A DNA stretch of 64,000 nt, taken from Trissonchulus latispiculum. Its lineage: Eukaryota > Nematoda > Enoplea > Enoplida > Ironidae. The notes below the pieces were generated by a model. It ran no database searches, was not told the DNA's origin, and saw only the letters and a list, made by a program, of their open reading frames with translations. The stretch is taken from positions 1-64,000 of the forward strand of contig JASAND010028452.1 of assembly GCA_030248195.1 (NCBI GenBank). The letters are read 5' to 3'. Made by a program: the position numbers and the translations under genes. This document shows positions 24,049 through 64,000 of the stretch, piece by piece; position 1 is the first letter of the stretch; every line of letters begins with the position of its first letter.

Positions 24049-24444
<396 letters not shown>

Positions 24445-33119: not shown

Positions 33120-33168
33120 CATAGTTTGCCTGGGAAATTATATATTATTATTATTACATTATTAATTA

Positions 33169-38661: not shown

Positions 38662-38768
38662 TTTTTGTTTTTTGCCCTTGTTCCTCTTTCTCTCCTTAAT
38701 GTTTCCTACCTTCGAATCGCGACGGGGGGCGGCCGCCCCCCCCCTGGTTGCTACCGCGACCCCTATGA

Positions 38769-39524: not shown

Positions 39525-39603
39525 TTTTCTATTATTTTATATATATATGTATGCTCCTGAAGGTATGTATAGATATCTTTCAACAGTAGCAAGCAAGCCA
39601 ACC

Positions 39604-40455: not shown

Positions 40456-40870
40456 TGACCTCCCACCGACCTGACCCTCCAGATGGCAAAGTGGAAGCAG
40501 CACAGCAAGATGGGTGGGTCAGACGGCAAAACGGATGCCAGGAATAAGCTGGGCGCACCAGAAAACCCCTATAGACAATGTTTTGAGAGGCTATGTACAG
40601 TCCTATATGATGTTCCCGGAAGTCGGTACCGACCGGACCCTCCAGACGGCAAAGTGGAACCAGCACAGCAAGATGGGTGGGTCAGACGGCAGAACGGACA
40701 CCGGGAATGAGCTGGGCGCACCAGAAAACCCCTATAGACAAAGTTTGGAGAGGCTTTGTAAAGCCTACTATGGACCTCCGGGAAGCGGTTACCGACCTGA
40801 CCCCTCAGACGGTCAAGTGGAACCAACCCAGCAACTTGGGTTACTCGGGCAGCAAAACTGATAGCGGGAA
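40456..40870. repeat. Satellite block, ~163-bp unit, about 2.5 copies
   Basis: CAGCACAGCAAGATGGGTGG and CCAGAAAACCCCTATAGACA recur with a ~163-bp period. Overlapping open frames on both strands follow the repeat and are not evidence of a gene. Confidence 0.85.
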
Positions 40871-40944
40871 TCGATTCTCCGTCCCAGAAAACCTTTGTAT
40901 GCAAAATTTGAGCCACCCATATAGCAAAATAAGCGAAAAATTTA

Positions 40945-42054: not shown

Positions 42055-42383
42055 TGTCTGAGACAACTGAAAATTTCTACTCAAGGCTAAAAATTTCTGC
42101 GGATCTTTGCGCAAAGCTCCGAAAAAAGTTACGGAATTTTCAAAAAAGTGCGGAATTTTGCTTTGCAAAAAAGACAGGGGGGAAATAAACCCACCCCTTA
42201 CAGGTCTTAAAAATAGTCTTAGCGCAAATTTGACACTTCCTCTGTAAAAAATTCAGCCCTTTTTAGATTGTACGTATATTGTATAAACCAAAAACCCGAT
42301 CTAAGTGGTTTTTTACATCTCATGTGCCATTGAAAATGCAGCATCAACTGGACAGGTTTCATTAAGTTTAACACATGCATATA

Positions 42384-42520
42384 CAAGAACAAAAAGTGCT
42401 CCTTCGTCGCATGTAAAATACATATGAGTCTTCGTAGTCAGGTTGTACATAAGCAAAAACGAGCCTGTAAAATATATACATATATATGAGTTCCGTAGGG
42501 AGGTTGTAAATTAAGGAAAA
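42384..42520. repeat. Truncated arm of the 756-bp element, interrupted by the nested array
   Basis: Matches 38769-38903 up to AAGGAAAA, then switches abruptly to the CAAG header of the first array element, whereas the intact copies continue CAAGTTGCAACCGC. Confidence 0.85.
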
Positions 42521-43343
42521 CAAGCAAAGTGGCATGAATGGGTTGCCGCTGGCATTTTTCCTTTTGTCAAGGGGCATAACTCAGTTTGCATGCAGTTAGG
42601 AACTTTGTCTCTATTACAACTTTTTATCTACTCAACGAGAGCTTTCGAATGACACCGGTATCGACCGGATCCGACAACTTTCAATTTTTGAGCCATTTTG
42701 GCCGGTTTTGGCCATTTTTGATCCCTTTGAGGCCCCGTAAGTCATGTTCTGTACATTTTGGTGCCTTGGCTCTATTATAACTTTTTATCTACGCAACGAG
42801 AGCTTTCGAATAATACCCATATGAGCCCAATTGGACAACTTTCAATTTTGAGCTATTTTGGCCGTCTTTGGCCATTTTGACCCCTTTCAGGCCCCGAAAC
42901 TCCTTTTCTGTACATTTTGGTGCCTTGGCCCTATTATAACTTTTTATCTACGCAACGAGAGCTTTCGAATGATACCAATATGAGCCTAATTGGACAACTT
43001 TCAATTTTGAACCGTTTTGGCCGTTTTTGGTCATTTTTGACTATTTTCGGCCTCGTAACTCAAAATGAGTGCATTTTTAGGCCTTGACCCTATTACAACT
43101 TTTTCATTACTCGCCGAGAGCTTTCGAATGATACCAAAATTAGCTCATTTGGACAACTTTTTTTATTTTACTCATTTTTACTCACGGGGGTGCTCCGGGA
43201 GCACCTCTGCTCCCCCGGGGCTCCCCGCGCTTCCGGGAGCAGTTCAAGTCAAGACCTTCAAAATGAGGTATCAACCACCTCTCTACCCCTTTCCAATCTC
43301 GAGATAGAGGGGGGGGACAAGAATCCGGAGAAGAAATAAATAA
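42521..43343 (-). mobile_element. Array element 1: H1, type A core, no hairpin before next header
   Basis: Left end is a junction with the truncated repeat at 42384-42520. The right side ends in TAA-type microsatellite directly followed by the H2 of element 2. Confidence 0.8.
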
Positions 43344-44004
43344 CTAGCGAAGTAGCGAGAATGGGTTGCCGCGGCATTTTCCGTTTATATATGGTTATAT
43401 CTCCGAAAAGAGGCACCTTTGAGACCCAGTATTGTCTGATTCGTGTAGCCCGTATCGAGAGCTCTCATTAGAGTACCATATTGACCATATTTAGAGTTGT
43501 TTCGATTTTTGGTCATTTCGGTCGATTTTGCCCATTTTTGACTACTTTGAAGCTCCGTAACTCATTTTTCCTACATTTTGGTGTGTTGGCACTATTACAA
43601 CTTTTCATCTACTCAACGAGAGCTTTCGAATGACACCGACATGAGCCCGATCCTAGAACTTTCAATTTTGAGCCATTTTGGCCGTTTTTGGCCATTTTTG
43701 ACTATTTTTCGCCTCATAACTCAAAATGAGTGCATTTTCAGGCCTTGACCCAATTACAACTTTTTCTTTACTCGTCGAGAGCTTTCGAATGATACCAAAA
43801 TTAGCTAATTTGGACAACTTTTTTATTTTACTCATTTGTACTCACGGGGCTGCTCCGGGAGCACCTCTGCTCCCCCGGGGCTCCCCGCGCTTCCGGGAGC
43901 AGTTCAAGTCAAGACCTTCAAAATGAGGTATCAACCACCTCTCTACCCCTTTCCAAACTCGAGGTAGAGGGGGGGACAGGGGTGGTAACGAGATTAATAA
44001 TAAT
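43344..44004 (-). mobile_element. Array element 2: H2, type A core, open
   Basis: Ends in AATAATAATAA, then the H5 header of element 3. Confidence 0.8.
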
Positions 44005-45390
44005 AAGTCAAAAGGCATCAAGTGGTTCCCGCCCGTCATTTTTCCGTTTATAAAAAGCGCTCATTTTCAGGAAAAGTATTCGGTTTCATGCTTTGCGACT
44101 ATTGTAACAGTTTTATACATTACCAAGAGCATTAGATTGATACCATTGTCAGCCAGATCCGACAAACTTCAGTTTGCACTCATTATGACCAATTTGGCGA
44201 TTTTTGACTCATTCGAAGGCTCGTAGCTCATTTTTCCTACACTTTGACGCCTTGGCCCTGTCACAACGTTTTATCTACGCAGCGATAGCTTTCGAGTAAT
44301 ACCGGTATCAGCCGGATCCGACAACTTTTAATTTTGACCCATTTTGATCGTTTTTGGCCATTTTTGACCCCTTTGAGGCCCCGTAACTAATTTCTCCTAC
44401 ATTTTGGTGCTTTACCCCTATTACAACTTTCTACCTACGCAACGAGAGCTTTCGAATGATATCCACATTGTGCGGTTTCTGACAACTTTCAATTTTGACC
44501 CATTTTGACCGGTTTTGGTCATTTTTGACCCCTTTGAGGCCCCGTAACTCATTTTTCCTACATTTTGACGCCTTGGCCCTATTACAACTTTTTATCCACG
44601 CAACCAGAGCTTTCGAACGATACCCATATTGGGAGGTTTTCGACAACTTTTATTTTTTACCCATTTTGACCGTTTTTGGCCATTTTTGACCCCTTTGAGG
44701 TCCCGCAACTCACTTTTCCTACATTTTGACGCCTTGGCCCTATTACAACTTTTTACCTACTCAACGAGAGCTTTCGAATGATAGTCATATTGGGGGGTTT
44801 CCGTCACTTTCAATTTTGACCATTTGCAGCATCGCCGTATCGAGTAATTGAGAATTGCGTGACACTATGGTGCCCAGGTGCCCGGAGGGTCTTCCCGCAT
44901 CGGGCGCGACCCTACATGCCAAATTTCAGGCCAACCAGTTGACTCTAGCTCGAGATAAAGGCGGAAAACCCCTTAAAACGGCCGTTTTGGCCGTTTTTGT
45001 CCATTTTTGACCCTTTTTCGCCTCATAACTCAAAATAGGTACATTTTCAGGCCTTGACCCTATTACAACTTTTTCATGGCTCGACGAGAGCTTTCGAATG
45101 ATACCAAAATTAGCCCATTTGGACAACTTTTTTATTTTACTCATTTTTACTCACGGGGGTGCTCCGGGAGCACCTCTGCTCCCCAGGGGCTCCCCGCGCT
45201 TCCGGGAGCAGTTCAAGTCAAGACCTTCAAAATGAGGTATCAACCACCTCTCTACCCCTTCCCAATCTCGAGATAGAAGGGGGGACACGAAAATGTGAAC
45301 AATAATAATAAGAATAAGAATAAGAATAATAATAATAAACATGTCCAGAACATAGGGTTCCAAACCCTTTGGAAAAGGGCGGGAACCCAA
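44005..45390 (-). mobile_element. Array element 3: H5...T5, complete
   Basis: Header GGTTCCCGCCC and terminal hairpin GGGCGGGAACCC are complementary. About seven type A units; longest complete element (1386 bp). Confidence 0.85.
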
Positions 45391-46376
45391 CAAGCAAAGT
45401 GGCATGAATGGGTTGCCGCTGGCATTTTTCCTGTTATAAACGAGATAAGTCAATTATCCTACGATATTACTCCTTGTCCCTTTTTTACAACTTTTTATAT
45501 ACTTAAAGAGATCTTTCGATTGATATACATATTGTCGTTTTTCCATAACTTTTGATTTTGACCCATTTTGGCCGGTTTTGGCCATTTTTGACCCCTTTGA
45601 GGCCCCGTAACTCATTTTCTGTACATTTTGGTGCTTTTGCTCTTTTACAAATATTTATCTACTCAACGAGAGCTTTCGAATGACACCGGTATCGACCGGA
45701 TCCGACAATTTTCAGTTTTCACCCATTTTGGCCGGTTTTTTGCCATTTTTGACCCCTTTGTGACCCCGTAACTCATTTTCTGGACATTTTGGTGCTTTTG
45801 CTCTATTACAAATGTTTATCTACTCAACGAGAGCTTTCGAATGACACCGGTATCGACCGGATACGACAATTTTCAGTTTTGACCCATGTTGGACGGTTTT
45901 GTCCATTTTTGACCCCTTTGGAGCCCCGTAACTCATTTTCTGTACATTTTGGTGCTTTGAACCTATTACAACTTTTTATCTACGTAACGAGAGCTTTCAA
46001 ATGATACCGATATGAGCCCGATCTGAGAACTTTCAATTTTGAGCCATTTTGGCCGTTTTTGGCCATTTTTGACCCTTTTTCGCCTCATAACTCAAAATGA
46101 GTGCATTTTCAGGCCTTGACCCTATTACAACTTTTTCATTACTCGTCGAGAGCTTTCGAATGATACCAAAATTAGCTCATTTGGACAACTTTTTTATTTT
46201 ACTCATTTTTACTCACGGGGGTGCTCCGGGAGCACCTCTGCTCCCCCGGGGCTCCCCGCGCTTCCGGGAGCAGTTCAAGTCAAGACCTTCAAAATGAGGT
46301 ATTAACCACCTCTCTACCCCTTCCCAATCTCGAGATAGAGGGGGGGGACAAGAATCCGGAGAAGAAATAATAATAA
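45391..46376 (-). mobile_element. Array element 4: H1, type A core, open
   Basis: Core units with gtacatttt landmarks at about 45621, 45783 and 45942 (period ~160). Confidence 0.8.
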
Positions 46377-47277
46377 CAAGCAAAGTGGCATGAATGGGTT
46401 GCCGCTGGCATTTTTCCTCTTATCAGGAGTCATATTTGAAACTGCGTACACTTAAGAGCTTTGGCTCTATTACAACTTTTTATCCACTGAACGAGAGCTT
46501 TCGAATGACACCCATATTGTGGAGTTTCGACAACGTCTATTTTTGACCCATTTTGACTGGTTTCGGCCTTTTTTGACCCCTTTCATTTCCCGTAGCTCAG
46601 TTTCTGTACATTTTGGTGCTTTGGCCCTATTACAACTTTTTATTTACTCAACGAGAGCTTTCGAATGATACCCGTATCGACCGGATCCGACAATTTTCAA
46701 TTTTGACCCATTTTGGCCGGTTTTGGCCATTTTTGACCCCTTTGGGGACCCGTAACTCATTTTCTGTACATTATGGTGCTTTGGCCCTATTACAACTTTT
46801 TATATACGCAACGAGAGCTTTCGAATGATACCGATATGAGTCCGATCAGAGAACTTTCAATTTTGAGCCATTTTGGCCGTTTTTGCCCATTTTTTGCCAT
46901 TTTTCGCCTCATAACTCAAAATGAGTGCATTTTCAGGCCTTGACCCAATTACAACTTTTTCTTTACTCGTCGAGAGCTTTCGAATGATACCAAAATTAGC
47001 TCATTTGAACAACTTTTTTATTTTACTCATTTTTACTCACGGGGGTGCTCCGGGAGCACCTCTGCTCCCCCGGGGCTCCCCGCGCTTCCGGGAGCAGTTC
47101 AAGTCAAGACCTTCAAAATGAGGTATCAACCACCTCTCTACCCCTTTCCAATCTCGAGATAGAGGGGGGGGACAAGAATCCGGAGAAGAAATAATAATAA
47201 ATAATAATAATAAATAATAAATAACGGACATACCCAAGTTAAAGGGTTGCCTTTTTGTTGAAAAAGCGGCAACCCAA
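46377..47277 (-). mobile_element. Array element 5: H1...T1, complete
   Basis: 901 bp; header GGGTTGCCGC, hairpin end GCGGCAACCC; type A core. Confidence 0.85.
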
Positions 47278-48320
47278 TAATAAATCCTACCGGCATCAAC
47301 GGGTTGTCGCGCATTTTCCTCTTATTCCTCTGTGCTTATATTGGCTCGGGCAAAAACTCAGTTTTGGAACATATTCAGATTTTGACCCTATCACAACTTT
47401 TTCCCTACTCGCTGAGAGCTTTAGCATAAGTATATACCATATTGACAACTTTTAGGACAATTTTTAAAATTCCGATTTTTCCGGAAATTACGGACTTTCC
47501 AATCTGCGGTCATAGATAGCTTTCGCCAGAAACATTTTCAGAAAATACGGTAATGATAAAAATTACTCAGCGCGACGAGCTCTTTCGTTTGAGTACCATA
47601 TTGAGTAGTTTTGAGCAAATTTTTCAAAATCCGGAATTTTCCGGATCGAATATCTCGAAATCCGTAAATTTTCCGGAAATTTCGATTCCAGTTTCGAAAT
47701 CAGCGTGGTCGAATTACCCTATGACCAACTTTTAAGCAAAATCCGAGACAAAAAAGTTTTAAGTCCAAAATCCGGGTTTTCGTGAATTCCCGGATTTTCA
47801 GTTTTTCGGCTATAACTTTCGTTAGACGCATTTCCGGAAAATGTCGCAAGAAGGAAAGTTGCCCAGCTCGACGAGCTCTTTCATTTGAGTACCATATCGA
47901 CTACTTTTGAAGAAACTTTTCAAAATCCGAAATTTTCCGGGGCGAATATCTCGAAATCCGTAAATTTTCCGGAAATTTCGATTTTAGTTTCGAAATCAGC
48001 ATGGTCGAATTACCCTATGACCAACTTTTGAGCGAAATCGGAGGCAAAAAATTTTTACGTTTCCCTTGGTCCCCCCTTACCATTTTTAAAAATTCCGGGA
48101 GCCGACATTCCCGGAATCCGGGAGGTATCGGGCTACCCGCACTTCCGGTACCACTTCACCCCACCCCCAACTGGTACTGATAATTTCAGCCCGATCGGTC
48201 CAGCCAATCTCGAGAAAAAGGGGGGGACAAGATTGTTTACCGATATAATAAATAAATAAATAAAGAAACTTTCCCATAACAAAGGGTTGTCTTTTTTTTA
48301 AAAAAATGCGACAACCCAAT
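47278..48320 (-). mobile_element. Array element 6: H4...T4, complete
   Basis: 1043 bp; header GGGTTGTCGC, hairpin end GCGACAACCC; type B core. Confidence 0.85.
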
Positions 48321-49298
48321 AATAAATCCTACCGGCATCAACGGGTTGTCGCGCATTTTCCTCTTATTCCTCTGTGCTTATATTGGCTCGGGCTAAAACT
48401 CAGTTTTAGAACATTTTCAGACTTTGACCCTATCACAACTTTTTCCCTACTCGCTGAGAGCTTTCGAATAAGTACCATATTGACAACTTTTAGGACAATT
48501 TTTAAAATTCCGGTTTTTTCCGGAAATTACGGATTTTCCAATCTGCGGTCATAGCTTTCGCCAGAAACATTTTCAGAAAATACGGTAATGATAAAAATTA
48601 CTCAGCGCGACGAGCTCTTTCGTTTGAGTACCATATTGACTAGTTTTGAGCAAATTTTTCAAAATCCGGAATTTTCCGGATCGAATATCTCGAAATCCGT
48701 AAATTTTCCGGAAATTTCGATTCCAGTTTCGAAATCAGCGTGGTCGAATTACCCTATAACCAACTTTTGAGTGAAATCGAAGACAAAAAATTTTTAAGTC
48801 CAAAATCCGGGTTTTCGTGAATTCCCGGATTTTCAGTTTTTCGGCTATAACTTTCGCTGGACGCATTTCCGGAAACTGTCGCAAGAAGGAAAGTTGTTCA
48901 GCTCGACGAGCTCTTTCATTTGAGTACCATATCGACTACTTTTGGAGAAATTTTTCAAAATCCGGAATTTTCCGGGGCGAATATCTCGAAATCCGTAAAT
49001 TTTCCGGAAATTTCAATTTCAGTTTCGAAATCAGCGTGGTCGAATTACCCTATGACCAACTTTTGAGCAAAATCGGGGACAAAAAATTTTTACGTTTCCC
49101 TTGGTCCCCCCTTATATACCATTTTTAAAAATTCCGGGAGCCGCCATTCCCGGAATCCGGGAGATATCGGGCTACCCCCACTTCCGGTACCACTTTAGGT
49201 CACCCTACAACTATGGTGAAAATTTCAGCCCGATCGGTCCAGCCAATCTCGAGAAAAAGGGGGGGGGGACAAGATTGTTTACCGATATAATAAATAAA
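48321..49298 (-). mobile_element. Array element 7: H4, type B core, hairpin displaced by an insertion
   Basis: Breaks inside its ATAAATAAA microsatellite at 49298. The missing T4 hairpin resumes at 50196 after element 8. Confidence 0.85.
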
Positions 49299-50195
49299 CA
49301 AGCAAATTGGCATGAACGGGTTGCCGCTGGCATTTTTCCTCTTATCAGGAGACATCTCAAGCTGTGTATATTTAGGAACGTTGGCTCTATTTCAATTTTA
49401 TTATCCACTCAGAGAGCTTTTGAATGATATTCATGCTGGACTGATACTAGACTGATACGAGAACTTTCAATTTTGACCAATTTTGGTAGATTTTGGCAAT
49501 TTTTGACCCTTTCGATGCTCCGTAACTCATTTTCTGTACATTTTGGTGCTTTGGCCCTATTACAACTTTTTATCTACGTAACGAGAGCTTTCCAATGATG
49601 CTCATATTGAACGGTTTCCGTTACTTTCAATTTTGACCCATTTTGGCAGGTTTTGGCCATTTTTGACCTTTTTGTGACCCCGTAACTAATTTGTTCTACA
49701 TTTTGGTGCTTTGACCCTATTACAACCTTTCATCTACTCAACGAGAGCTTTCGAATGACACCTATATCGACCGGATCCGACAATTTTCAATTTTGAGCCA
49801 TTTTGGCCGTTTTTGGCAATTTTTGACCATTTTTCGCCTCATAACTCAAAATAGGTACATTTTCAGGCCTTGACCCAATTACAACTTTTTCATTACTCGC
49901 CGAGAGCTTTCGAATGATACCAAAATTAGCTCATTTGGACAACTTTGTATTTTACTCATTTTTACTCACGGGGGTGCTCCGGGAGCACCTCTGCTCCCCC
50001 GGGGCTCCCCGCGCTTCCGGGAGCTGTTCAAGTCAAGACCTTCAAAATGAGGTATCAACCACCTCTCTACCCCTTTCCAATCAAAAGTTAGAGGGGGGGA
50101 CAAGAATCCGGAGAATAATAAATAATAATAATAAAGAAATAACGGACATACCCAAGTTAAAGGGTTGCCTTTTTGTTGAAAAAGCGGCAACCCAA
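49299..50195 (-). mobile_element. Array element 8: H1...T1, complete, nested in element 7
   Basis: 897 bp; almost identical to element 16 (54920-55815). Confidence 0.85.
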
Positions 50196-50258
50196 TAAAG
50201 AAACTTACCCATAACAAAGGGTTGTCTTTTTTTTTAAAAAATGCGACAACCCAATAAA
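50196..50258 (-). mobile_element. T4 hairpin completing element 7
   Basis: Carries GGGTTGTC...GCGACAACCC and continues the TAAAGAAAC microsatellite edge of element 7. Confidence 0.8.
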
Positions 50259-51077
50259 CAAGCAAAGTATCATGAATGGGTTGCCGCTGTAATTTTTCCT
50301 CTTATCAGGAGTCATATCTGAAGCTGCGTACATTTAAGAGCTTTGACTCTATTACAACTTTTTATCCTCTCAACGAGAGCTTTCGAATGATAGCCATATT
50401 GTGGATTTTCGACAATTTTTGATTTTGACCCATTTTGGCCGGTTTTGGTCATTTTTGACCCTTTGAGTCCCCGTAGCCAATTTTCTGTACATTATGGTGC
50501 TTTGGCCCTATTACAACTTTTTATCTACGCAACGAGAGCTTTCGAATGATACCAATATGGGTCCGATCTGAGAACTTTCAATTTTGAGCCATTTTGGCCG
50601 GTTTTGGCCATTTTTGACCCCTTTGAGGCTCCGTAACTCTTCTCCTGTACATTTTGGTGCTTTGGCCCTATTACAAAGTTTTATCTACACAATGAGAGCT
50701 TTCGAATGATACCCATATGAACCCAATTGGACAACTTTCAATTTTGAGCCATTTTGGCCGTTTTTGGCCATTTTTCACTATTTTTCGCCTCATAACTCAA
50801 AAGGAGTGCATTTTCAGGCCTTGACCCAATTACAACTTTTTCTTTACTCGTCGAGAGCTTTCGAATGATACCAAAATTAGTTCATTTGGACAACTTTTTT
50901 ATTTTACTCATTTTTACTCACGGGGGTGCTCCGGGAGCACCTCTGCACCCCCGGGGCTCCCCGCGCTTCCGGGAGCAGTTCAAGTCAAGACCTTCAAAAT
51001 GAGGTATCAACCACCTCTCTACCCCTTCCCAATCTCGAGATAGAGGGGGGGACAAGAATCCGGAGAATAATAATAAA
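50259..51077 (-). mobile_element. Array element 10: H1, type A core, open
   Basis: Nearly identical to element 18 (55878-56697). Confidence 0.8.
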
Positions 51078-51976
51078 CTAGCGAAGTAGCGAGAATGGGT
51101 TGCCGCGGCATTTTCCCTTTGGGGGGGACGGATTTCTTTCAGAAGAATGCAACAGTTTTTTGTCGTAACTTTCGCTGGACGCATTTCAGGAAAATGCCGC
51201 AAGCAGAAAACTTGTTCAGCCCGACGAGCTTTCATTTGAGTATCATATCGACCACTTTCGGAAAAATTTTTTCAAAATCCGAGTTTTTCGTGAATTTCCG
51301 GATTTTCCTTTTTTCGGCCGTAACTTTCGCCAGACGCATTTCCGGAAAATGTCTCAAGAAGGAATGTTGTTCAGCTCGACGAGCTCTTTCATTTGAGTAC
51401 CATATCGACCAATTTCGGAAAAATTTGTCAAAATCCGGTTTTTCGTGAATTTCCGGATTTTCCGTTTTTCGGCCATAACTTTCGCTAGACGCATTTCCGG
51501 AAAATGTCGCAAGAAGGAAAGTTGTTCAGCTCGACGAGCTCTTTCATTTGAGTACCATATCGACCACTTTTGGAGAAATTTTTCAAAATCCGGAATTTTC
51601 CGGGTCCAATATCTCGAAATCCGTAAATTTTCCGGAAATTTCGATTTCAGTTTCGAAATCAGCGCTATCGAATTGCCCTATGACCAACTTTTAAGCAAAA
51701 TCGGAGACAAAAAATTTTTACGTTTCCCTTGGTCCCCCCTTACCATTCCAAAAAATTCCGGGATTCGCCATTCCCGGAATCCGGGAAATATCGGACTGCC
51801 CGCACTTCAGTCAACACTTCACCCCACCCCCAACACCCCCTAAAAATTTCAGCCCAATCGGGCCACCCTAGCAAAAGTTAGAGGGGGGGGACAGGGGTGG
51901 TCACGAGATGAATAATAAATAAACGGACATACCCAGATGAAAGGGTTGCCTTTTTGTGTAAAAAGCGGCAACCCAA
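51078..51976 (-). mobile_element. Array element 11: H2...T2, complete; absent from the duplicate copy
   Basis: 899 bp; type B core. It is present between AACTAGCG repeats here but missing at the equivalent point (56696-56703) of the duplicated block. Confidence 0.9.
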
Positions 51977-52625
51977 CTAGCGCTACTGCAAGAATGTGTT
52001 GCCCACGACACATTCCATTGGGGTATAAACTTTGCTAGACACCTTTTAAGCTGTTTCTGTTCAGGAAATCTGTCCCAGGACTTAAAGAGCTTTCAATTAA
52101 GTACCATATTGCCCGTGTTTCAACGAATTTTTGAAAATCCGGTTTTTTCCGGAAATTCCGGATTTTCCAGTCTGCGGCCATAACTTTCGCTAGAAATATT
52201 TCCGGAAAATATTGTAATTATAAAAATCACCAGCTCGACGAGCTCTTTCATTTAAGTACCATATCGACCACTTTTGGAGAAATTTTTCAAAATCCAGAAT
52301 TTTCCGGGTCCAATATCTCGAAATCCGTAAATTTTCCGGAAATTTCGATTCCAGTTTCGAAATCAGCGTAGTCGAATTACCCTATGACCGACTTTTGAGC
52401 CAAATCAAACACAAACAATTTTTGACCAAATTTTGGATTTTTGAAATTTCGCCTTGGTCCCCCCTTACCAACCGAAAAAATCCGAATTTACAAAATCCGG
52501 AATTTCGGAACCATCTTGCTTCCGGGAGATGTCCTAGTCAAGGGCTTCAAAATAAGGTATCAACCACCCCTGTACCTCTTCTCAATCTCGAGATCTAGGG
52601 GGGGACAGACGGATAATAATAATAA
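51977..52625 (-). mobile_element. Array element 12: H3, type B core, open
   Basis: Header TGTGTTGCCCAC; nearly identical to element 19. Confidence 0.8.
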
Positions 52626-53129
52626 CTAGCGCTACTGCAAGAACGTGTTGCCCACGATAGGTTTTTCTGTTTATTTTTCTGCCATAACTTTCGCTAGACG
52701 CATTTTCAGAAATTGTTGCAAGAAGGAAAGTTGTTCAGCTCGACGAGCTCTTTCATTTGAGTACCATATCGACTACTTTTGGAGAAATTTTTCAAAATCC
52801 GGAATTTTCCGGGGCGAATATCTCGAAATCCGTAAATTTTCCGGAAATTTCAATTTCAGTTTCGAAATCAGCGTGGTCGAATTACCCTATGACCAACTTT
52901 TGAGCAAAATCGGGGACAAAAAATTTTTACGTTTCCCTTGGTCCCCCCTTACCATTTTTAAAAATTCCGGGAGCCGCCATTCCCGGAATCCGGGAGATAT
53001 CGGGCTACCCCCACTTCCGGTACCACTTTAGGTCACCCTACAACTATGGTGAAAATTTCAGCCCGATCGGTCCAGCCAATCTCGAGAAAAAGGGGGGGGA
53101 CAAGATTGTTTACCGATATAATAAATAAA
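52626..53129 (-). mobile_element. Array element 13: H3 variant, type B core, open
   Basis: The header has CGTGTTGCCCAC; shares its first ~110 bp with element 20, then diverges. Confidence 0.75.
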
Positions 53130-53953
53130 CTAGCGAAGTAGCGAGAATGGGTTGCCGCGGCATTTTCCGTTTATAGATGGCTATATCTCCCAAAAGAGGC
53201 ACCTTTGCGACCCAGTATAGTCTGATTCGTGTAGTCCGTATCGAGAGCTCTCAATAGAGTACCATATTGACCATGTTTAGAGTTGTTTAGATTTTTGGTC
53301 ATTTTGGCCGATTTTGACCATTTTTGACCCCTTTGAAGCTACGTAACTCAATTTTCGTACTTTTTGGCGGCTTGGCCCTATTACAACTTTTTATCTACCC
53401 AACGATCGCTTTCGAATGATACCCATATTAGGTGAATTCCGCTACTTTCAATTTTGAGCCATTTTGGCCGATTTTGACCATTTTTGACCCCTTTGAAGCT
53501 CCGTAACTCAATTTTCGTACATTTTAGCGGCTTGGCCCTATTACAACTTTTTATCTACTCAATGAGAGCTTTCGAATAAGCCCCATATTGGGTGGTTTCC
53601 GATACTTTCAATTTTGAACCATTTTGGTCGATTTTGACCATTTTTGACCTCTTTGAAGCTCCGTAACTCAATTTTCGTACATTTTGGCGGCTTGGCCCTA
53701 TTACAACTTTTTATCTACTCAACGAGAGCTTTCGAATGAGCCCCATATTGGGCGGTTTCCGATACTTTCAATTTTGACCATATGCAGCATCACCGTATCG
53801 AGTACTTTCGCATACCGCAAGGGGGGGAACCCCCCGCGCTTCAGTCAACTCTTCACCCCACCCCCTAACCCCCCTGAAAATTTCAGCCCAATCGGTCGAC
53901 CCTAGCAAAAGTTAGAGGGGGGGGACAGGGGGTGGTCACGAGAATAATAATAA
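53130..53953 (-). mobile_element. Array element 14: H2, type A core; hairpin displaced
   Basis: Closed by the T2 hairpin at 54862 after insertion of element 15. Confidence 0.8.
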
Positions 53954-54861
53954 CTAGCGAAGTAGCGAGAATGGGTTGCCGCGGCATTTTCCCTTAGGTT
54001 CCGGGTTTTCTTTCAGAAGAATGCAACAGTTTTTTGGTCGTAACTGTCGCTAGACGCATTTCCGAAAAATGCCGCAAGCAGAAAAGTTGTTCAGCTCGAC
54101 GAGCTCTTTCATTTGAGTATCATATCGACCACTTTCGGAAAACTTTTTCAAAATCCGGGTTTTCGGGAATTCCCGGATTTTCAGTTTTTCGGCTGTAACT
54201 TTCGCTAGACGCATTTCCGGAAAATGCCGCAAGAAAAAAAGTTGTTCAGCTCGACGAGCTCTTTCATTTGAGTATCATATCGACCACTTTCGGAAAAATG
54301 TTTCAAAATCCGGGTTTTCTTGAATTCCCGGATTTTCAGTTTTTCGGCTGTAACTTTCGCTAGACGCATTTCCGGAAAATGCCGCAAGAAAGAAAGTTGT
54401 TCAGCTCGACGAGCTCTTTCATTTGAGTATCATATCGACCACTTTCGGAAAAATTTTTCAAAATCCGGAATTTTCCGGGTCCAATATCTCGAAATCCGTA
54501 AAATTTCCGGAAATTTCGATTTCAGTTTCGAAATCAGCGTGGTCGAATTACCCTATGCCCAACTTTTGAGCAAAATCGGAGACAAAAAATTTTTACGTTT
54601 CCCTTGGTCCCCCCTTACCATTCTAAAAAATTCCGGGATTCGCCATTCCCGGAATCCGGGAAATATCGGACTGCCCGTGCTTCAGTCAACACTTCACCCC
54701 ACCCCCAACACCCCTGAAAAATTTCAGCCCAATCGGGCCACCCCAGCAAAAGTTAGAGGGGGGGGACAGGGGTGGTCACGAGATGAATAATAATAATAAT
54801 AAATAAACGGACATACCCAGATGAAAGGGTTGCCTTTTTTGTGTAAAAAGCGGCAACCCAA
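53954..54861 (-). mobile_element. Array element 15: H2...T2, complete, nested in element 14
   Basis: 908 bp; type B core with units at about 54048, 54206 and 54361 (period ~155). Confidence 0.85.
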
Positions 54862-54919
54862 TAAAGGGACATACCCAGATGAAAGGGTTGCCTTTTTTGT
54901 GGAAAAAGCGGCAACCCAA
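54862..54919 (-). mobile_element. T2 hairpin completing element 14
   Basis: CCCAGATGAAAGGG...GCGGCAACCC directly after another T2. Confidence 0.8.
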
Positions 54920-55815
54920 CAAGCAAATTGGCATGAACGGGTTGCCGCTGGCATTTTTCCTCTTATCAGGAGACATCTCAAGCTGTGTATATTTAGGAAC
55001 GTTGGCTCTATTTCAATTTTATTATCCACTCAGAGAGCTTTTGAATGATATTCATGCTGGACTGATACTAGACTGATACGAGAACTTTCAATTTTGACCA
55101 ATTTTGGTAGATTTTGGCAATTTTTGACCCTTTCGATGCTCCGTAACTCATTTTCTGTACATTTTGGTGCTTTGGCCCTATTACAACTTTTTATCTACGT
55201 AACGAGAGCTTTCCAATGATGCTCATATTGAACGGTTTCCGTTACTTTCAATTTTGACCCATTTTGGCAGGTTTTGGCCATTTTTGACCTTTTTGTGACC
55301 CCGTAACTCATTTGTTCTACATTTTGGTGCTTTGACCCTATTACAACCTTTCATCTACTCAACGAGAGCTTTCGAATGACACCTATATCGACCGGATCCG
55401 ACAATTTTCAATTTTGAGCCATTTTGGCCGTTTTTGGCAATTTTTGACCATTTTTCGCCTCATAACTCAAAATAGGTACATTTTCAGGCCTTGACCCAAT
55501 TACAACTTTTTCATTACTCGCCGAGAGCTTTCGAATGATACCAAAATTAGCTCATTTGGACAACTTTGTATTTTACTCATTTTTACTCACGGGGGTGCTC
55601 CGGGAGCACCTCTGCTCCCCGGGGCTCCCCGCGCTTCCGGGAGCTGTTCAAGTCAAGACCTTCAAAATGAGGTATCAACCACCTCTCTACCCCTTTCCAA
55701 TCAAAAGTTAGAGGGGGGGACAAGAATCCGGAGAATAATAAATAATAATAATAAAGAAATAACGGACATACCCAAGTTAAAGGGTTGCCTTTTTGTTGAA
55801 AAAGCGGCAACCCAA
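54920..55815 (-). mobile_element. Array element 16: H1...T1, complete (duplicate of element 8)
   Basis: 896 bp; start of the duplicated block. Confidence 0.85.
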
Positions 55816-55877
55816 TAAAGAAACTTACCCATAACAAAGGGTTGTCTTTTTTTTTAAAAATGCGACAACCCAATAAA
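55816..55877 (-). mobile_element. Orphan T4 hairpin (duplicate of 50196-50258)
   Basis: Its H4 partner (element 7) was not included in the duplication. Confidence 0.8.
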
Positions 55878-56697
55878 CAAGCAAAGTATCATGAATGGGT
55901 TGCCGCTGTAATTTTTCCTCTTATCAGGAGTCATATCTGAAGCTGCGTACATTTAAGAGCTTTGACTCTATTACAACTTTTTATCCTCTCAACGAGAGCT
56001 TTCGAATGATAGCCATATTGTGGATTTTCGACAATTTTTGATTTTGACCCATTTTGGCCGGTTTTGGTCATTTTTGACCCTTTGAGTCCCCGTAGCCAAT
56101 TTTCTGTACATTATGGTGCTTTGGCCCTATTACAACTTTTTATCTACGCAACGAGAGCTTTCGAATGATACCAATATGGGTCCGATCTGAGAACTTTCAA
56201 TTTTGAGCCATTTTGGCCGGTTTTGGCCATTTTTGACCCCTTTGAGGCTCCGTAACTCTTCTCCTGTACATTTTGGTGCTTTGGCCCTATTACAAAGTTT
56301 TATCTACACAATGAGAGCTTTCGAATGATACCCATATGAACCCAATTGGACAACTTTCAATTTTGAGCCATTTTGGCCGTTTTTGGCCATTTTTCACTAT
56401 TTTTCGCCTCATAACTCAAAAGGAGTGCATTTTCAGGCCTTGACCCAATTACAACTTTTTCTTTACTCGTCGAGAGCTTTCGAATGATACCAAAATTAGT
56501 TCATTTGGACAACTTTTTTATTTTACTCATTTTTACTCACGGGGGTGCTCCGGGAGCACCTCTGCACCCCCGGGGCTCCCCGCGCTTCCGGGAGCAGTTC
56601 AAGTCAAGACCTTCAAAATGAGGTATCAACCACCTCTCTACCCCTTCCCAATCTCGAGATAGAGGGGGGGGACAAGAATCCGGAGAATAATAATAAA
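55878..56697 (-). mobile_element. Array element 18: H1, type A core (duplicate of element 10), open
   Basis: Followed directly by H3 with no element-11 equivalent. Confidence 0.8.
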
Positions 56698-57347
56698 CTA
56701 GCGCTACTGCAAGAATGTGTTGCCCACGACACATTCCATTGGGGTATAAACTTTGCTAGACACCTTTTAAGCTGTTTCTGTTCAGGAAATCTGTCCCAGG
56801 ACTTAAAGAGCTTTCAATTAAGTACCATATTGCCCGTGTTTCAACGAATTTTTGAAAATCCGGTTTTTTCCGGAAATTCCGGATTTTCCAGTCTGCGGCC
56901 ATAACTTTCGCTAGAAATATTTCCGGAAAATATTGTAATTATAAAAATCACCAGCTCGACGAGCTCTTTCATTTAAGTACCATATCGACCACTTTTGGAG
57001 AAATTTTTCAAAATCCAGAATTTTCCGGGTCCAATATCTCGAAATCCGTAAATTTTCCGGAAATTTCGATTCCAGTTTCGAAATCAGCGTAGTCGAATTA
57101 CCCTATGACCGACTTTTGAGCCAAATCAAACACAAACAATTTTTGACCAAATTTTGGATTTTTGAAATTTCGCCTTGGTCCCCCCTTACCAACCGAAAAA
57201 ATCCGAATTTACAAAATCCGGAATTTCGGAACCATCTTGCTTCCGGGAGATGTCCTAGTCAAGGGCTTCAAAATAAGGTATCAACCACCCCTGTACCTCT
57301 TCTCAATCTCGAGATCTAGGGGGGGGACAGACGGATAATAATAATAA
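56698..57347 (-). mobile_element. Array element 19: H3, type B core (duplicate of element 12), open
   Basis: Nearly identical to 51977-52625. Confidence 0.8.
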
Positions 57348-57861
57348 CTAGCGCTACTGCAAGAACGTGTTGCCCACGATAGGTTTTTCTGTTTATTTTT
57401 CTGCCATAACTTTCGCTAGACGCATTTTCAGAAATTGTTGCAAGAAGGAAAGTTGCTCAGCTCGACGAACTCTTTCGTTTGAGCACCATATCGACCACTT
57501 TCTGAGAAATTTTTCAAAATCCGGAATTTTCCGGGTCGAATATCTCAAAATCCGTAAATTTTCCGGAAATTTCCATTTCAGTTTCGAAATCAGCGTGGTC
57601 GAGTTACCCTATGACCAACTTTGGAGCGAAATCGGAGACAAAAATTTTTGACCAAATTTTGGATTTTGAAATTTCGCCTTGGTCCCCCCTTACCAACCGA
57701 AAAATTCCGGGACTCGCCATTCCCGGAATCCGGAAGGTATCGGACTGCCCAACTGAGGATCCAACGTCCAAGTGAATATCTTCAAAATGAGGTATCAACC
57801 ACCCCTGTACCCCTTCCCAATCTCGAGATCTAGGGGGGGGACAGACGGATAATAATAATAA
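57348..57861 (-). mobile_element. Array element 20: H3 variant, type B core, open
   Basis: Identity with element 13 stops at about 57455. Confidence 0.75.
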
Positions 57862-58687
57862 CAAGCAAATTGGCATGAATGGGTTGCCGCTGGCATTTTT
57901 CCTCTTATCGAGGGACATAACTCAGCTTGCATGCAGTTAGCAGCTTTGTCTCTATTACAACTTTTTATCTACTCAACGAGAGCTTTCGAATGACACCGGT
58001 ATCGACCGGATCCGACAACTTTCAATTTTGAGCCATTTTGGCCGCTTTTGGCCATTTTTGACCCCTTTGAGGCCCCGTAAGTCAGTTTTTGTACATTTTA
58101 GTGCTTTGGCCCTATTACAACATTTTATCTACGCAACGAGAGCTTTCAAATGATACCCATATAAGCCCAATTGGACAACTTTCAATTTTGAGCCATTTTG
58201 GCCGTTTTTGGCCATTTTTGACCCCTTTCAGGCCCCGAAACTCCTTTTCTGTACATTTTGGTGCTTTGGCCCTGTTAAAACTTTTTATCTACGCAACGAG
58301 AGCTTTCGAATAATACCCATATGAGCCCAATTGGACAACTTTCAATTTTGAGCCATTTTGACCGTTTTTGGTCATTTTTGACCCTTTTTCGCCTCATAAC
58401 TCAAAATGGGTGCATTTTCAGGCCTTGACCCTATTACAACTTTTTCATTACTCGCCGAGAGCTTTCGAATGATACCAAAATTAGCTCATTTGGACAACTT
58501 TTTTATTTTACTCATTTTTACTCACGGGGGTGCTCCGGGAGCACCTCTGCACCCCCGGGGCTCCCCGCGCTTCCGGGAGCAGTTCAAGTCAAGACCTTCA
58601 AAATGAGGTATCAACCACCTCTCTACCCTTTCCAATCTCGAGATAGAGGGGGGGGACACATACGGCAAGAAATAATAATAATAATAA
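57862..58687 (-). mobile_element. Array element 21: H1, type A core, open
   Basis: Ends in AATAATAATAATAA, then the H3 header. Confidence 0.8.
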
Positions 58688-59496
58688 CTAGCGCTACTGC
58701 AAGAATGTGTTGCCCACAAATGGTTTTTCTGTTTATTTTTCTGCCATAACTTTCACCAGAAGCATTTCCGGAAAATACGGTAATGATGAAAATTACTCAG
58801 CACGACGAGCGCTTTCATTTGAGTACCATATCGACCACTTTCGGAAAAATTTTTCAAAATCCGGAATTTTCCGGATCGAATATCTCGAAATCCGGAAATT
58901 TTCCGGAAATTTCGATTTCAGTTTCGAAATCAGCGCGGTCGAGTTACCCTATGACCAACTTTTGAGCGAAATCGGAGACAAAAAATTTTTGGTCCAAAAT
59001 CCGGGTTTCCGTGAATTCCCGGATTTTCAGTTTTTCGGCCATAACTTTCGCTAGACGCATTTCCGGAAAATGTCGCAAGAAGGAAAGTTGTTCAGCTCGA
59101 CGAGCTCTTTCATTTGAGTACCATATCAACCACTTTTGAAGAAATTTTTCAAAATCCGGAATTTTCCGGGTCTAATATCTCGAAATCCGTAAATTTTCCG
59201 GCAATTTCGATTTCAGTTTCGAAATCAGCGTGGTCGAGTTACCCTATGACCAACTTTTGAGCGAAATCGGAGACAAAAAATTTTTGACCAAATTTTGGAT
59301 TTTGAAATTTCGCCTTGGTCCCCCCTTACCAACCGAAAAATTCCGGGATTCACCATTCCCGGAATCCGGAAGATATCGGAGCCATCTTGCTTCCCGGAGA
59401 TGTCCTAGTTAAGGGCTTCAAAATGAGGTATCAACCACCCCTGTACCCCTTCCCAATATCGAGATCTAGGGGGGGACAGACGGATAATAATAATAA
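58688..59496 (-). mobile_element. Array element 22: H3, type B core; hairpin displaced
   Basis: Closed by the T3 hairpin at 62319-62394. Confidence 0.8.
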
Positions 59497-60501
59497 CAAG
59501 CGAAGTAGCGAGAATGGGTTGCCGCGGCATTTTCCCTTAGGTTCCGGGTTTTCTTTCAGAAGATTGCAACAGTTTTTTGGTCGGAACTTTCGTTAGACGC
59601 ATTTCTGGAAAATTCCGCAAGCAGAAAAGTTGTTCAGCTCGACGAGCACTTTCATTTGAGTATCATATCGACCACGTTCGGAAAACTTTTTCAAAATCCG
59701 GGTTTTCGGGAATTCCCGGATTTTCAGTTTTTCGGCTGTAACTTTCGCTAGACGCATTTCCGGAAAATGCCGCAAGAAGGAAAGTTGTTCAGCTCGACGA
59801 GCTCTTTCATTTGAGTATCATATCGACCACGTTCGAAAAAATTTTTCAAAATCCGGGTTTTCGGGAATTCCCGGATTTTCAGTTTTTCGGCTGTAACTTT
59901 CGCTAGACGCATTTCCGGAAAATGTCGCAAGAAGGAAAGTTGTTTAGCTCGACGAGCTCTTTCATTTGAGCCCCATATCGACCACTTTCGGAAAAATTTT
60001 TCAAAATCCGGGTTTTCGGGAATTCCCGGATTTTCAGTTTTTCGGCTGTAACTTTCGCTAGACGCATTTCCGGAAAATGGCGCAAGAAGGAAAGTTGTTC
60101 AGCTCGACGAGCTCTTTCATTTGAGCCCCATATCGACCACTTTCGGAAAAATTTTTCAAAATCCGGAATTTTCCGGGTCCAATATCTCGAAATCCGTAAA
60201 TTTTCCGGAAATTTCGATTTCAGTTTCGAAATCAGCGTGGTCGACTTACCCTATGACCAACTTTTAAGCAAAATCGGAAACAAAAAATTTTTACGTTTCC
60301 CTTGGTCCCCCCTTACCATTCTAAAAAATTCCGGGATTCGCCATTCCCGGAATCCGGGAAATATCGAACTGCCCGCGCTTCAGTCAACACTTCACCCCAC
60401 CCCCAACCCCCACCTCAAATTTCAGCCCAATCGGTCAACCCTAGCAAAAGTTAGAGGGGGGGGACAGGGGGTGGTAACGAGATGAAGAATAATAATAATA
60501 A
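59497..60501 (-). mobile_element. Array element 23: H2 (CAAG variant), type B core; hairpin displaced
   Basis: About four type B units with a 155-bp period; closed by the T2 hairpin at 62254. Confidence 0.8.
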
Positions 60502-61174
60502 CTAGCGAAGTAGCGAGAATGGGTTGCCGCGGCTTTTTCCGTTTATATATAGCGATATCTCCCAAGGGAAGCACCTCTGTGGCCCAGTATTGTCTGATTC
60601 GTGTATTCCGTATCGAGAGCTCTCATTTGAGTACCATATTGACCATATTTAGAGTTGTTTTGATTTTTTGGTCATTTTGGTCGATTTTTACCATTTTTGA
60701 CCCCTTTGAAGCTCCGTAACTCAATTTTCGTACATTTTGGCGGCTTAGCCCTATTACAACTTTTTATGTACTCAATGAGAGCTTTCGAATGACACCGAAA
60801 TGAGCCCGATCCGAGAACTTTCAATTTTGAGCCATTTTGGCCGTTTTTGGCCATTTTTTGACCATTTTTCTCCTCATAACTCAAAATGAGTGCATTTTCA
60901 GGCCTTGACCCAATTACAACTTTTTCATTACTCGCCGAGAGCTTTCGAATGATACCAATATTAGCTCATTTGGACAACTTTTTTATTTTACTCATTTTTA
61001 CTCACGGGGCTGCTCCGGGAGCAACCTTGCTCCCCCGGGGCTCCCCGCGCTTCAGTCAACACTTCAAGTCAAGACCTTCAAAATGAGGTATCAACCACCT
61101 CTCTACCCCTTCCCAATCAAAAGTTAGAGGGGGGGGACAGGGGGTGGTCACGAGAATAATAATAATAATAATAA
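60502..61174 (-). mobile_element. Array element 24: H2, type A core; hairpin displaced
   Basis: Closed by the T2 hairpin at 62195. Confidence 0.8.
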
Positions 61175-62194
61175 TAAATCCTACCGGCATCAACGGGTTG
61201 TCGCAGCCATTTTCCTCTTATCTAAAGGGCGAAAACTCAGTTTTGGTACATTTTCATTCTTTGGTGCTATTGCAACTTTTTTCCTACTCGCTAAGAGCTT
61301 TCGAATGAGTACCATAGAGTCTAATTTTGTGACAATTCTTAGAAATTCGGTTTTTCCGGGAATTCCCGGATTTTCGGTTTTTCGGCAATAACTTTCGCTG
61401 GACGCATTTCCGGAAAATGTCGCAAGAAGGAAAGTTGTTAAGCTCGACGAGCTCTTTCATTTGAGTACCATGTCGACCACTTTCGGAGAAGTTTTCCAAA
61501 ATCCGGAATTTTCCGGGTCCAATATCTCGAAATCCGTAAACTTTCCGGAAATTTCGATTCCAGTTTCGAAATCAGCGTGGTCGAATTACCCTATGACCAA
61601 CTTTTGAGCAAAATCGGAGACAAAATTTTTAAGTCCAAAATCCGGGTTTTCTTGAAATCCCGGATTTTCAGTTTTTCGGCTATAACTTTCGCTAGACGCA
61701 TTTCCGGAAAATGTCGCAAGAAGGAAAGTTGTCCAGCTCGACGAGCTCTTTCATTTGAGCTCCATATCGACCACTTTTGGGGAAAATTTTCAAATTCCGA
61801 TATTTTCCGGGGCGAATATCTCGAAATCCGTAAATTTTCCGGAAAATTCGTTTTCGGTTTCGAAATCAGCGCGGTCGAATTACCCTATGACCAACTTTTG
61901 AGCGAAATCGGAGACAAAAAATTTTTACGTTTCCCTTGGTCCCCCCTTACCATTTTTAAAAATTCCGGGAGCCGCCATTCCCGGAATCCGGGAGATATCG
62001 GGATGCCCTTACAAACGGGAGCACTTCAGGTCACCCTACAACTATGGTGAGAATTTCAGCCCGATCGGTCCAGCCAATCTCGAGAAAAAGGGGGGGGACA
62101 CAAATGTTGACCGGAATAATAAATAAATAAATAAATAAAGAAACTGAGCCATATCAAAGGGTTGTCTTTTTTTTAAAAAAATGCGACAACCCAA
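61175..62194 (-). mobile_element. Array element 25: H4...T4, complete, innermost of a four-deep nest
   Basis: 1020 bp; type B core; header GGGTTGTCGC, hairpin GCGACAACCC. Confidence 0.85.
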
Positions 62195-62394
62195 TAAAAA
62201 CGGACATACCCAGATGAAAGGGTTGCCTTTTTGTGTAAAAAGCGGCAACCCAATAATAATAAAAACGGACATACCCAGATGAAAGGGTTGCCTTTTTGTG
62301 TAAAAAGCGGCAACCCAATAATAATCATAATAATAATAAGCACAGACCAATAACAAAGTGTTGCCCATTCCTTTAGGAAAAGTGGGCAACACAA
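62195..62394 (-). mobile_element. Consecutive hairpins T2, T2, T3 closing elements 24, 23, 22
   Basis: T2 at 62195-62253, T2 at 62254-62318 and T3 at 62319-62394, each preceded by a short AAT-type spacer. Confidence 0.85.
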
Positions 62395-63305
62395 TAAGTC
62401 AAAAGGCATCAAGTGGTTCCCGCCCGACATTTTTCCGTTTATAGAATGAGTTTATAATATTCGGGGCCCCATAACTCATTTGTCCTATATTTTGACGCGA
62501 TGAACCTATTACAACTTTTTATCTACGCAACGAGAGCTTTCGAATGATGCCAATATTAACCCAATCGGACAACTTTCAGTCTTGACCCATTTGACCTGGT
62601 TTTGGCCATTTTTGACCCCTTTGAGGCTCCGTAACTCATTTCTCCCACATTTTGGTGTTTTACCCCTATTACAACTTTTTATCCACGCAACGAGAGCTTT
62701 CGAATAATACCCATATTGGGGTTTCCGTCACTTTCAATTTTGACCATTTGCAGCATCACCGTATCGAGTAATTGCGAATTGTGTGACACTATGGAACCCA
62801 GGTGCCCGGAGGGTATTCCCGCATCGGGTGCCACCCTACATGCAAAATTTCAGGCCAACTAGTTGACTCTAGCTCGAGATAAAGGCGGAAAACCCCTTCA
62901 AACGGCCGTTTTGGCCGTTTTTGGCCATTTTTGACCCTTTTTCGCCCCTCATAACTCAAAATAGGTACATTTTCAAGCCTTGACCCAATTACAACTTTTT
63001 CTTTACTCGCCGAAGAGCTTTCGAATGATACCTAAATTAGCTCATTTGGACAACTTTTTTATTTTACTCATTTTTTACTCACGGGGTACTCCGGGAGCAT
63101 CTCATCCCCCCAGAGGCTCCTGCGCTTCCGAGAGCAGTTCAAGTCAAGACCTTCAAAGTGAGGTATCAACCACCTCTCTACCCCTTCCCAATCTCGAGAT
63201 AGACATGGTGACACGAAATTGTGGACAATAATAATAAGAAGAATAATAATAATAAACATGTCCAGAACATAGGGTTCCAAACCCTTTGAAAAGGGCAGGA
63301 ACCCA
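62395..63305 (-). mobile_element. Array element 27: H5...T5, complete
   Basis: 911 bp; the hairpin has one change (GGGCAGGAACCC) from element 3. Confidence 0.85.
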
Positions 63306-64000
63306 ATAAATAAAAAAGGCATCAAGTGGTTCCCGCCCGACATTTTTCCGTTTATAGGAAGGACGTCATTTTCTGGAAAAGTATTCGGTTTCATGCTTTG
63401 CGCCTATTTTAACTGTTTTCCCCCCAGCTTAACAAGAGCTTTCGATTAATACCACTACAAGCTCGATCTGACAAAGTTCAATTTTCACTCATTTTGACCA
63501 ATTTGGCGATTTTTGCCCGTTCGGCGGCTCGTAGCTCCTTTTTCGCACACATTGACGCGGTGAAATCTATTACAACTTTTTATCTACGCAACGAGAGCAT
63601 TCGAATGATACCCATATTAAACTCCAATCGGACAATTTTCGATTTTGACCCATTTTGACCGTTTTGTCCATTTTTGACCCCTTTGAGGCCCCGTAACTCA
63701 TTAATTCCCCACATTTTGGCGCTTTATCCCTATTACAACTTTTACCTTACGCAACGAGAGCGTTCGAATGATGGTCCACATTGTAGTTTCTGACAACTTT
63801 TGTTTTTGGCCCATTTTTGACCGGTTTTGACCATTTTTGACCCCTTTGAGGCTCGTAACTAATTTTTCCCACATTTTAACGCCTTGGCTTATCACAACTT
63901 TTTATCCACCAACGAGAGCTTTCGAATAATACCCATATTGGGGGTTTCCGTCACTTTCAATTTGGACCATTTGCAGCATCACCGTATCGAGTACTTGCAT
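63306..64000 (-). mobile_element. Array element 28: H5, type A core, cut by window end
   Basis: Header GGTTCCCGCCC at about 63329; core continues to the last base. Confidence 0.8.

Follow-up and report, generated by a model that had tools for sequence, protein, structure and literature searches.

How does a locus come to hold the opening ends of 25 repeated elements and the closing ends of 15, and what sets the order in which the closing ends appear? The question is raised by positions 42521-64000 (~21 kb) of a 64,000-nt window from Trissonchulus latispiculum (contig JASAND010028452.1 of assembly GCA_030248195.1, positions 1-64,000, forward strand), "the window" being the whole stretch analysed, in which no N occurs. 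A motif scan of this array found 25 headers of five classes (H1-H5) and 15 terminal hairpins (T1-T5), all in a single orientation on the plus strand, in agreement with the places listed in an earlier reading of the letters alone (hereafter, the sequence-only reading). The explanation proposed is that the array was built like a matryoshka, by serial nesting of five classes of non-autonomous transposons working like the HINEs of the Helitron2/Helentron group, and its probability is put at roughly 0.85.

Order of closure

From header to hairpin, an element comprises central repeats, mostly 155-163 bp, then a tail that is specific to its class and usually rich in G, and lastly a short microsatellite of the TAA type. 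In terms of the element itself, the header probably marks its 3' end and the terminal hairpin its 5' end. Weak scan matches were left uncounted, namely a T5-like one at 3410 (6/23 mismatches) and arm matches at 2269, 29853 and 53821 (1/12 mismatch), as were minus-strand arm motifs within headers and one hairpin, which are the inverted repeats themselves.

In a strict stack parse, where every hairpin must match the class of the most recent open header, 14 of the 15 hairpins were matched, nine directly and five across other elements, which is the last-in-first-out bracket order claimed by the sequence-only reading. A first-in-first-out parse matched 3/15. Class labels were shuffled 100,000 times each, separately for the hairpins (T) and the headers (H), a check which that reading had proposed. 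With five classes and the full array, 14 matches were reached by 0/100,000 T shuffles (mean 3.46) and 0/100,000 H shuffles (mean 3.07). In a four-class version, with classes 1 and 2 merged (the same inverted repeat occurs in both), the observed fit was reached by 0 T and 0 H shuffles of 100,000. The non-direct closures taken alone are weaker evidence, being matched by 142 T and 92 H shuffles of 100,000 with five classes, and by 743 T and 1304 H shuffles with four. The elements and associated features are as follows.

42383-42520, plus strand: interrupted resident repeat, like the end of a terminal inverted repeat (TIR) transposon, cut after GGAAAA; 91.5% and 92.3% to uncut copies over 142 aligned columns
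42521-43343, minus strand: H1 element, outermost, open, hairpin expected beyond 64000 (motif scan, stack parse)
43344-44007, minus strand: H2 element, open (motif scan, stack parse)
44008-45388, minus strand: class 5 element, complete, H5 to T5 (motif scan, stack parse)
45391-46376, minus strand: H1 element, open (motif scan, stack parse)
46377-47275, minus strand: class 1 element, complete, H1 to T1 (motif scan, stack parse)
47285-48317, minus strand: class 4 element, complete and uninterrupted, H4 to T4 (motif scan, stack parse)
48327-50252, minus strand: class 4 element, microsatellite interrupted by 49299-50193, closed by T4 at 50199 (stack parse, copy comparison)
49299-50193, minus strand: class 1 element, complete, nested within 48327 (motif scan, stack parse)
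50259-51077, minus strand: H1 element, open; left copy of the duplication, probably with no hairpin of its own to come (self-comparison, alignment)
51078-51974, minus strand: class 2 element, complete, with no counterpart at the paralogous site 56697/56698 (stack parse, copy comparison)
51977-52625, minus strand: H3 element, open; left copy of the duplication, probably with no hairpin of its own to come (self-comparison, alignment)
52626-55871, minus strand: chimera of class 3 header and class 4 tail, interrupted, closed by T4 at 55819 (alignment, tail signature)
52718-52733, no strand: duplication junction, 16 bp common to 57348-type and 48327-type sequences (alignment)
53130-54917, minus strand: class 2 element split by 53954-54859, with T2 at 54865 as its closing hairpin; whole block absent at 49298/49299
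53954-54859, minus strand: class 2 element, complete, nested within 53130 (motif scan, stack parse)
54920-55813, minus strand: class 1 element, complete, copy of 49299-50193 (self-comparison, stack parse)
55878-56697, minus strand: H1 element, open, right copy of 50259 (self-comparison, stack parse)
56698-57347, minus strand: H3 element, open, right copy of 51977 (self-comparison, stack parse)
57348-57861, minus strand: H3 element, open, matching the class 3 half of the chimera (alignment, stack parse)
57862-58687, minus strand: H1 element, open, tail with none of the five class signatures (stack parse, tail signature)
58688-62392, minus strand: class 3 element, interrupted, closed by T3 at 62339 (stack parse)
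59497-62316, minus strand: class 2 element, interrupted, closed by T2 at 62265 (stack parse)
60502-62251, minus strand: class 2 element, interrupted, closed by T2 at 62200 (stack parse)
61179-62192, minus strand: class 4 element, complete, innermost of its nest, diverged tail (stack parse, tail signature)
62399-63304, minus strand: class 5 element, complete (stack parse)
63311-64000, minus strand: H5 element, open, extending past the window end (motif scan, stack parse)

Class-specific ends

The class labels are also grounded in the sequence of the ends. In one representative per class, the header and the hairpin arm of the same class are linked by an inverted repeat of 10-11 bp, and off-class matches between header and arm are at most 8 bp, except for one repeat common to classes 1 and 2; these two classes are told apart by the remaining header, the tail and the bases preceding the hairpin. 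Among the 24 elements with a tail in the window, the tail signature agrees with the header class in 21. The exceptions are 52626, which carries the signature of class 4, and 57862 and 61179, which carry none of the five chosen. With its class 1 header and unusual tail, 57862 may be closed by a variant hairpin.

A tandem duplication and the single mismatch

The one hairpin that failed in the strict parse, T4 at 55819, meets the class 3 header 52626 at the top of the stack, and the tail of 52626 is class 4. When compared with the class 3 element 57348, 52626 showed zero mismatches up to 52733; compared with the class 4 element 48327, it showed zero substitutions from 52718 onward and two short indels. 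The mismatch is therefore explained, since 52626 is a chimera at a duplication junction, with a class 3 header and a class 4 tail. The sequence-only reading was right to place this hairpin in a duplicated block; its H4 partner is not simply lacking, as that reading had supposed, and the tail half is found fused to the class 3 header. With 52626 labelled by its tail, 15/15 hairpins match the strict stack, and given that label, 1/60 orders of the six non-direct labels fits all.

Self-comparison showed that 49297-51083 equals 54918-56703 at 99.8%, with matching stretches on either side. In total, 1 substitution and six short indels separate the duplication copies in 388 + 1777 + 742 = 2907 aligned bases. 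As judged from the alignments, the tandem duplication, with ~2.9 kb of shared sequence, arose recently when an H4 body and an H3 body exchanged unequally. Elements 50259 and 51977 would be the left-hand copies, and their hairpins would exist once, after the right-hand copies.

A near-identical duplication could also be an artefact of assembly, in which two haplotypes were joined and part of the element count was added. One substitution in 2907 bases plus two blocks of elements is how two alleles might differ. The junction, on the other hand, is a clean switch between two different elements within 16 shared bases, in a window with no N, and this speaks against an artefact. Moreover, the order does not depend on the duplication: with copy B removed, 13/13 hairpins were matched, a fit that no T or H shuffle in 100,000 reached with five classes; with four, it was reached by a single T shuffle and by no H shuffle. 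Joined haplotypes are thus considered improbable, at a level that still deserves mention, and unequal exchange within a nested array is preferred.

Paralogous empty sites

The two duplication copies differ by two precise blocks. Copy A contains block 51078-51976, which copy B lacks at 56697/56698. Conversely, block 53130-54919, made up of one H2 element nested in another, occurs in copy B and has no counterpart at 49298/49299 in copy A. Each empty site lacks the block including two A's, with the rest of the site unchanged, and both lie at AA on the plus strand; whole elements are thus present or absent with only AA changed. The natural reading of this difference between aligned copies is insertion, and two blocks differing between copies with 1 substitution per 2907 bases suggest recent activity. 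Between its empty-site borders, block 53130-54919 holds exactly two H2 headers and two T2 hairpins, and for this reason hairpin 54865 was tied to header 53130.

The T2 hairpins stand in pairs, and the nesting might be real with these pairs being local duplications of a hairpin end, comparable to the multiple 5' termini seen in Helitrons of Fusarium, instead of separate closures. Each pair shares private variants (a 6-T run in 54807/54865 and AAAA before ACGG in 62200/62265), and each doublet can be described as tandem units, 54807-54917 with a 58 bp period (96%) and 62193-62325 with a 65 bp period (100%). The variants could point to local homogenisation or duplication of a hairpin piece, and Fusarium elements (FoHelis) repeat their first 73 or 85 nt (PMC5148889; here and below, papers are cited for the excerpts consulted). 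Nevertheless, the number of T2 hairpins equals that of open H2 headers in both blocks, and T3 at 62339 still matches afterwards. The two headers and two hairpins within the borders set by empty site 49298/49299 argue further against duplication for the pair at 53-55 kb, although not for the pair at 62 kb. Separate closures are accordingly retained, local duplication being given only a slim chance.

The same empty sites bear on a one-event origin, in which read-through of a terminator would yield head-to-tail rolling-circle copies, most of them without one end. Tandem Helitrons whose inner copies are truncated at one end have been reported (PMC7492417, PMC12628747, PMC5148889). In the array, by contrast, neighbours often belong to different classes, the missing ends return later in reverse order, and whole blocks with both ends are present or absent at the empty sites. 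Such tandem products are therefore very hard to reconcile with the locus, and serial insertion is the reading followed below.

Target site

Most of the headers (18/25) adjoin a TAA-type microsatellite, 6/25 come after a hairpin from which just AA, AATAAA or AATAAG separates them, and the remaining one, the outermost, lies at AAAA. In the region as now present, the microsatellite accounts for 178/1963 AA dinucleotides. With 18/25 headers there, a random choice among all AA sites is a very improbable account, the figure being a rough one since the present sequence is not that at the time of insertion. Stack order, the two paralogous empty sites and the class-specific tails support the serial insertion into TTA microsatellites put forward by the sequence-only reading, and nesting within the elements' own TAA/TTA microsatellite is well supported. 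Outside the array, no element was found in a (TTA)4 microsatellite at 33145.

Terminal structures and transposon type

Read on the minus strand, the elements consist of a terminal inverted repeat in a 5' hairpin, the TTA microsatellite, the central repeats and a second inverted repeat, with TT on both sides. In the five class representatives (5/5), the inverted repeats are 10-11 bp long and lie 0-1 nt (5') and 16-19 nt (3') from the ends; such asymmetric terminal inverted repeats are a mark of Helitron2. The 5' hairpin has a 7-10 bp inverted repeat, with fold z scores of -2.72 to -4.43 relative to shuffles (5/5). Two features of HINEs and Helentrons were also found: insertion at TT with no target duplication beyond the flanking Ts, as seen at the two empty sites, and a TAA/TTA microsatellite together with central repeats of mostly 155-163 bp.

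Other observations tell against nested insertion of HINE-like elements, in addition to the shared T2 variants and the possible assembly artefact already described. Within the window, which ends at 64000, 10/25 elements are unclosed, and each empty site could equally be a precise loss. A 3' palindrome was not found: the 3' end folds no better than shuffles (z 0.18 to 1.62 in 5/5 representatives), and in its last 40 nt the longest stems, of 2-5 bp, were reached by 434-2000 of 2000 shuffles. No transposase (Rep/helicase) domain was detected in 33 open reading frames (ORFs) of the window (30 of the 36 stop-to-stop ORFs of at least 90 aa from 11,110-41,063, plus 3 from the first 11 kb), a set that leaves the ORFs of the array outside and in which introns could hide such a domain. 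Autonomous Helentrons are expected to encode Rep, helicase and endonuclease, and Helitron2 elements a Rep-Hel protein that lacks the endonuclease.

Elements of the canonical Helitron type (Helitron1, with 5' TC, 3' CTRR, a hairpin ~11 bp from the 3' end and A/T insertion) were rejected, as the ends and the AA/TT target differ on either strand. An origin from long terminal repeat (LTR) retrotransposons or from long or short interspersed nuclear elements (LINE, SINE) was set aside in view of the sharp element borders and the inverted repeat linking both ends. By structural analogy, the elements resemble non-autonomous Helitron2/Helentron (HINE-like) transposons; they are not filed as HINEs because the 3' palindrome was not found and no transposase was seen.

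Proposed mechanism and forecast

The proposal starts from the closure order, the class-specific ends, the precise presence or absence of whole elements at AA and the duplication junction. New copies would land at TT in the microsatellite just inside the hairpin of a resident element, and the asymmetry of the target strand would give them all one orientation. Each insertion would split the resident into hairpin and body, and repetition would produce last-in-first-out closure. One unequal exchange between H4 and H3 bodies would account for the tandem duplication and the only apparent mismatch. The mechanism would be of the single-strand rolling-circle kind, with the transposase supplied from elsewhere and the microsatellite preference being a property of that enzyme.

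The hairpins past 64000 are predicted to follow in the order T5, T1, T3, T3, T1, then T1, T2, T1, any complete elements among them being disregarded. The forecast had to be revised because 50259 and 51977, as left copies, would lack hairpins and 52626 has its closure within the window; it has three closures after the first five, compared with six in the stack of the sequence-only reading, where T3, T3 and T1 precede the final T1, T2, T1. The sequence expected to resume past the array, behind AA, is known, since two uncut copies of the resident repeat are present in the window, at 38768-38901 (plus) and 39392-39525 (minus), both running on into CAAGTTGCAACCGC. These copies face each other like the ends of a TIR transposon, the third copy ending at 42520, where the array starts.

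More tentatively, and at somewhat less than even odds, the internal TTA microsatellite may act as a landing pad for every class, with the locus growing inward without set limit, building satellite-like DNA from five co-mobilised classes and sparing genes; the array would then be an ordered record of insertions, with relative dates given by bracket order. If this bracket order were general in the genome, insertion order could be read without a molecular clock, and some satellite-rich blocks could be explained as self-targeted transposon nests. As recent activity is suggested, a HINE-like insertion reaction might be observable in a living species.

Sequences outside the array

A 147-bp satellite occupies 39601-40452 (5.8 copies at 96%). 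It is ~80% alike over 65 bp to the central repeats of the array, a similarity suggesting a related repeat outside the elements. It is directly followed by a 163-bp tandem repeat at 40465-40871 (2.5 copies). An ORF of 1404 aa at 6432-10646 (plus strand) contains many ankyrin repeats and an amiloride-sensitive sodium channel (ASC) domain, the latter pointing to an animal genome. A protein search with this ORF passed 6659 proteins; the 120 listed had identities of 23-32%, with matches to ankyrin, and gave no species assignment. An ORF at 24052-24444 (minus strand) matches histone H2A. In addition, two arrays of the 8-mer ACCGGGTC are found at 25097-25164 and 26157-26213.

Comparison with known systems

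Searches for DNA relatives covered collections consisting mainly of viruses and prokaryotes, in which there was no match in phage records, one hairpin pattern was absent from viral contigs and one central-repeat pattern had no match in genome contigs; a 19-mer from the central repeat had no match in full-text papers. Among the listed matches of a literature search on nested HINE/DINE-1/Helitron elements and on microsatellite or self-insertion, which left subscription journals mostly outside, no nest this deep appeared.

The closest likeness is to HINE/DINE-1 elements, described in mite and Drosophila (PMC4067079) and in oyster (Cg_HINE, PMC7492417). Shared traits are the 5' inverted repeat with an adjacent complementary repeat, the microsatellite, the central tandem repeats, the 3' inverted repeat away from the end, the T-rich flanks, the TT target and empty sites without target duplication. 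The array elements differ in that the 3' repeat lies 16-19 nt from the end, compared with 38-60 bp in mite HINEs (PMC4067079), in having no 3' palindrome, and in the many further copies inside their microsatellite.

Hairpins at both termini belong to the general description of Helitron2, whereas one was found here at the 5' end only. The FoHelis of Fusarium oxysporum, of the Helitron2 group (PMC5148889), have asymmetric inverted repeats, the 3' one lying ~20-40 bp in from the terminus; in FoHeli3-5 the 5' hairpin is degenerate and the 3' end has none. FoHelis also show self-insertion, one insertion 2 bp upstream of the 5' end of another copy, and multiple 5' termini. Unlike the array elements, full FoHelis are ~5-11 kb long and code for Rep-Hel, with one nested case and no microsatellite landing site in the excerpt. 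In Crassostrea gigas, Helitron/Helentron loci contain truncated or tandemised elements inserted within others of their kind, but the excerpt of that review (PMC12628747) specifies neither a depth nor an ordered closure.

The nesting logic is the same as in nested plant LTR retrotransposons (PMC6911290) and in the nested-repeat annotation of REANNOTATE (PMC2672092), which concern a different transposon class. MuTAnT (PMC4486113) is also a DNA transposon family that targets TA microsatellites, but it is Mutator-like, whereas the array elements carry the target repeat themselves. Helitron self-insertion is therefore already known, and it is the depth and regularity of the nesting that are unusual in this array.

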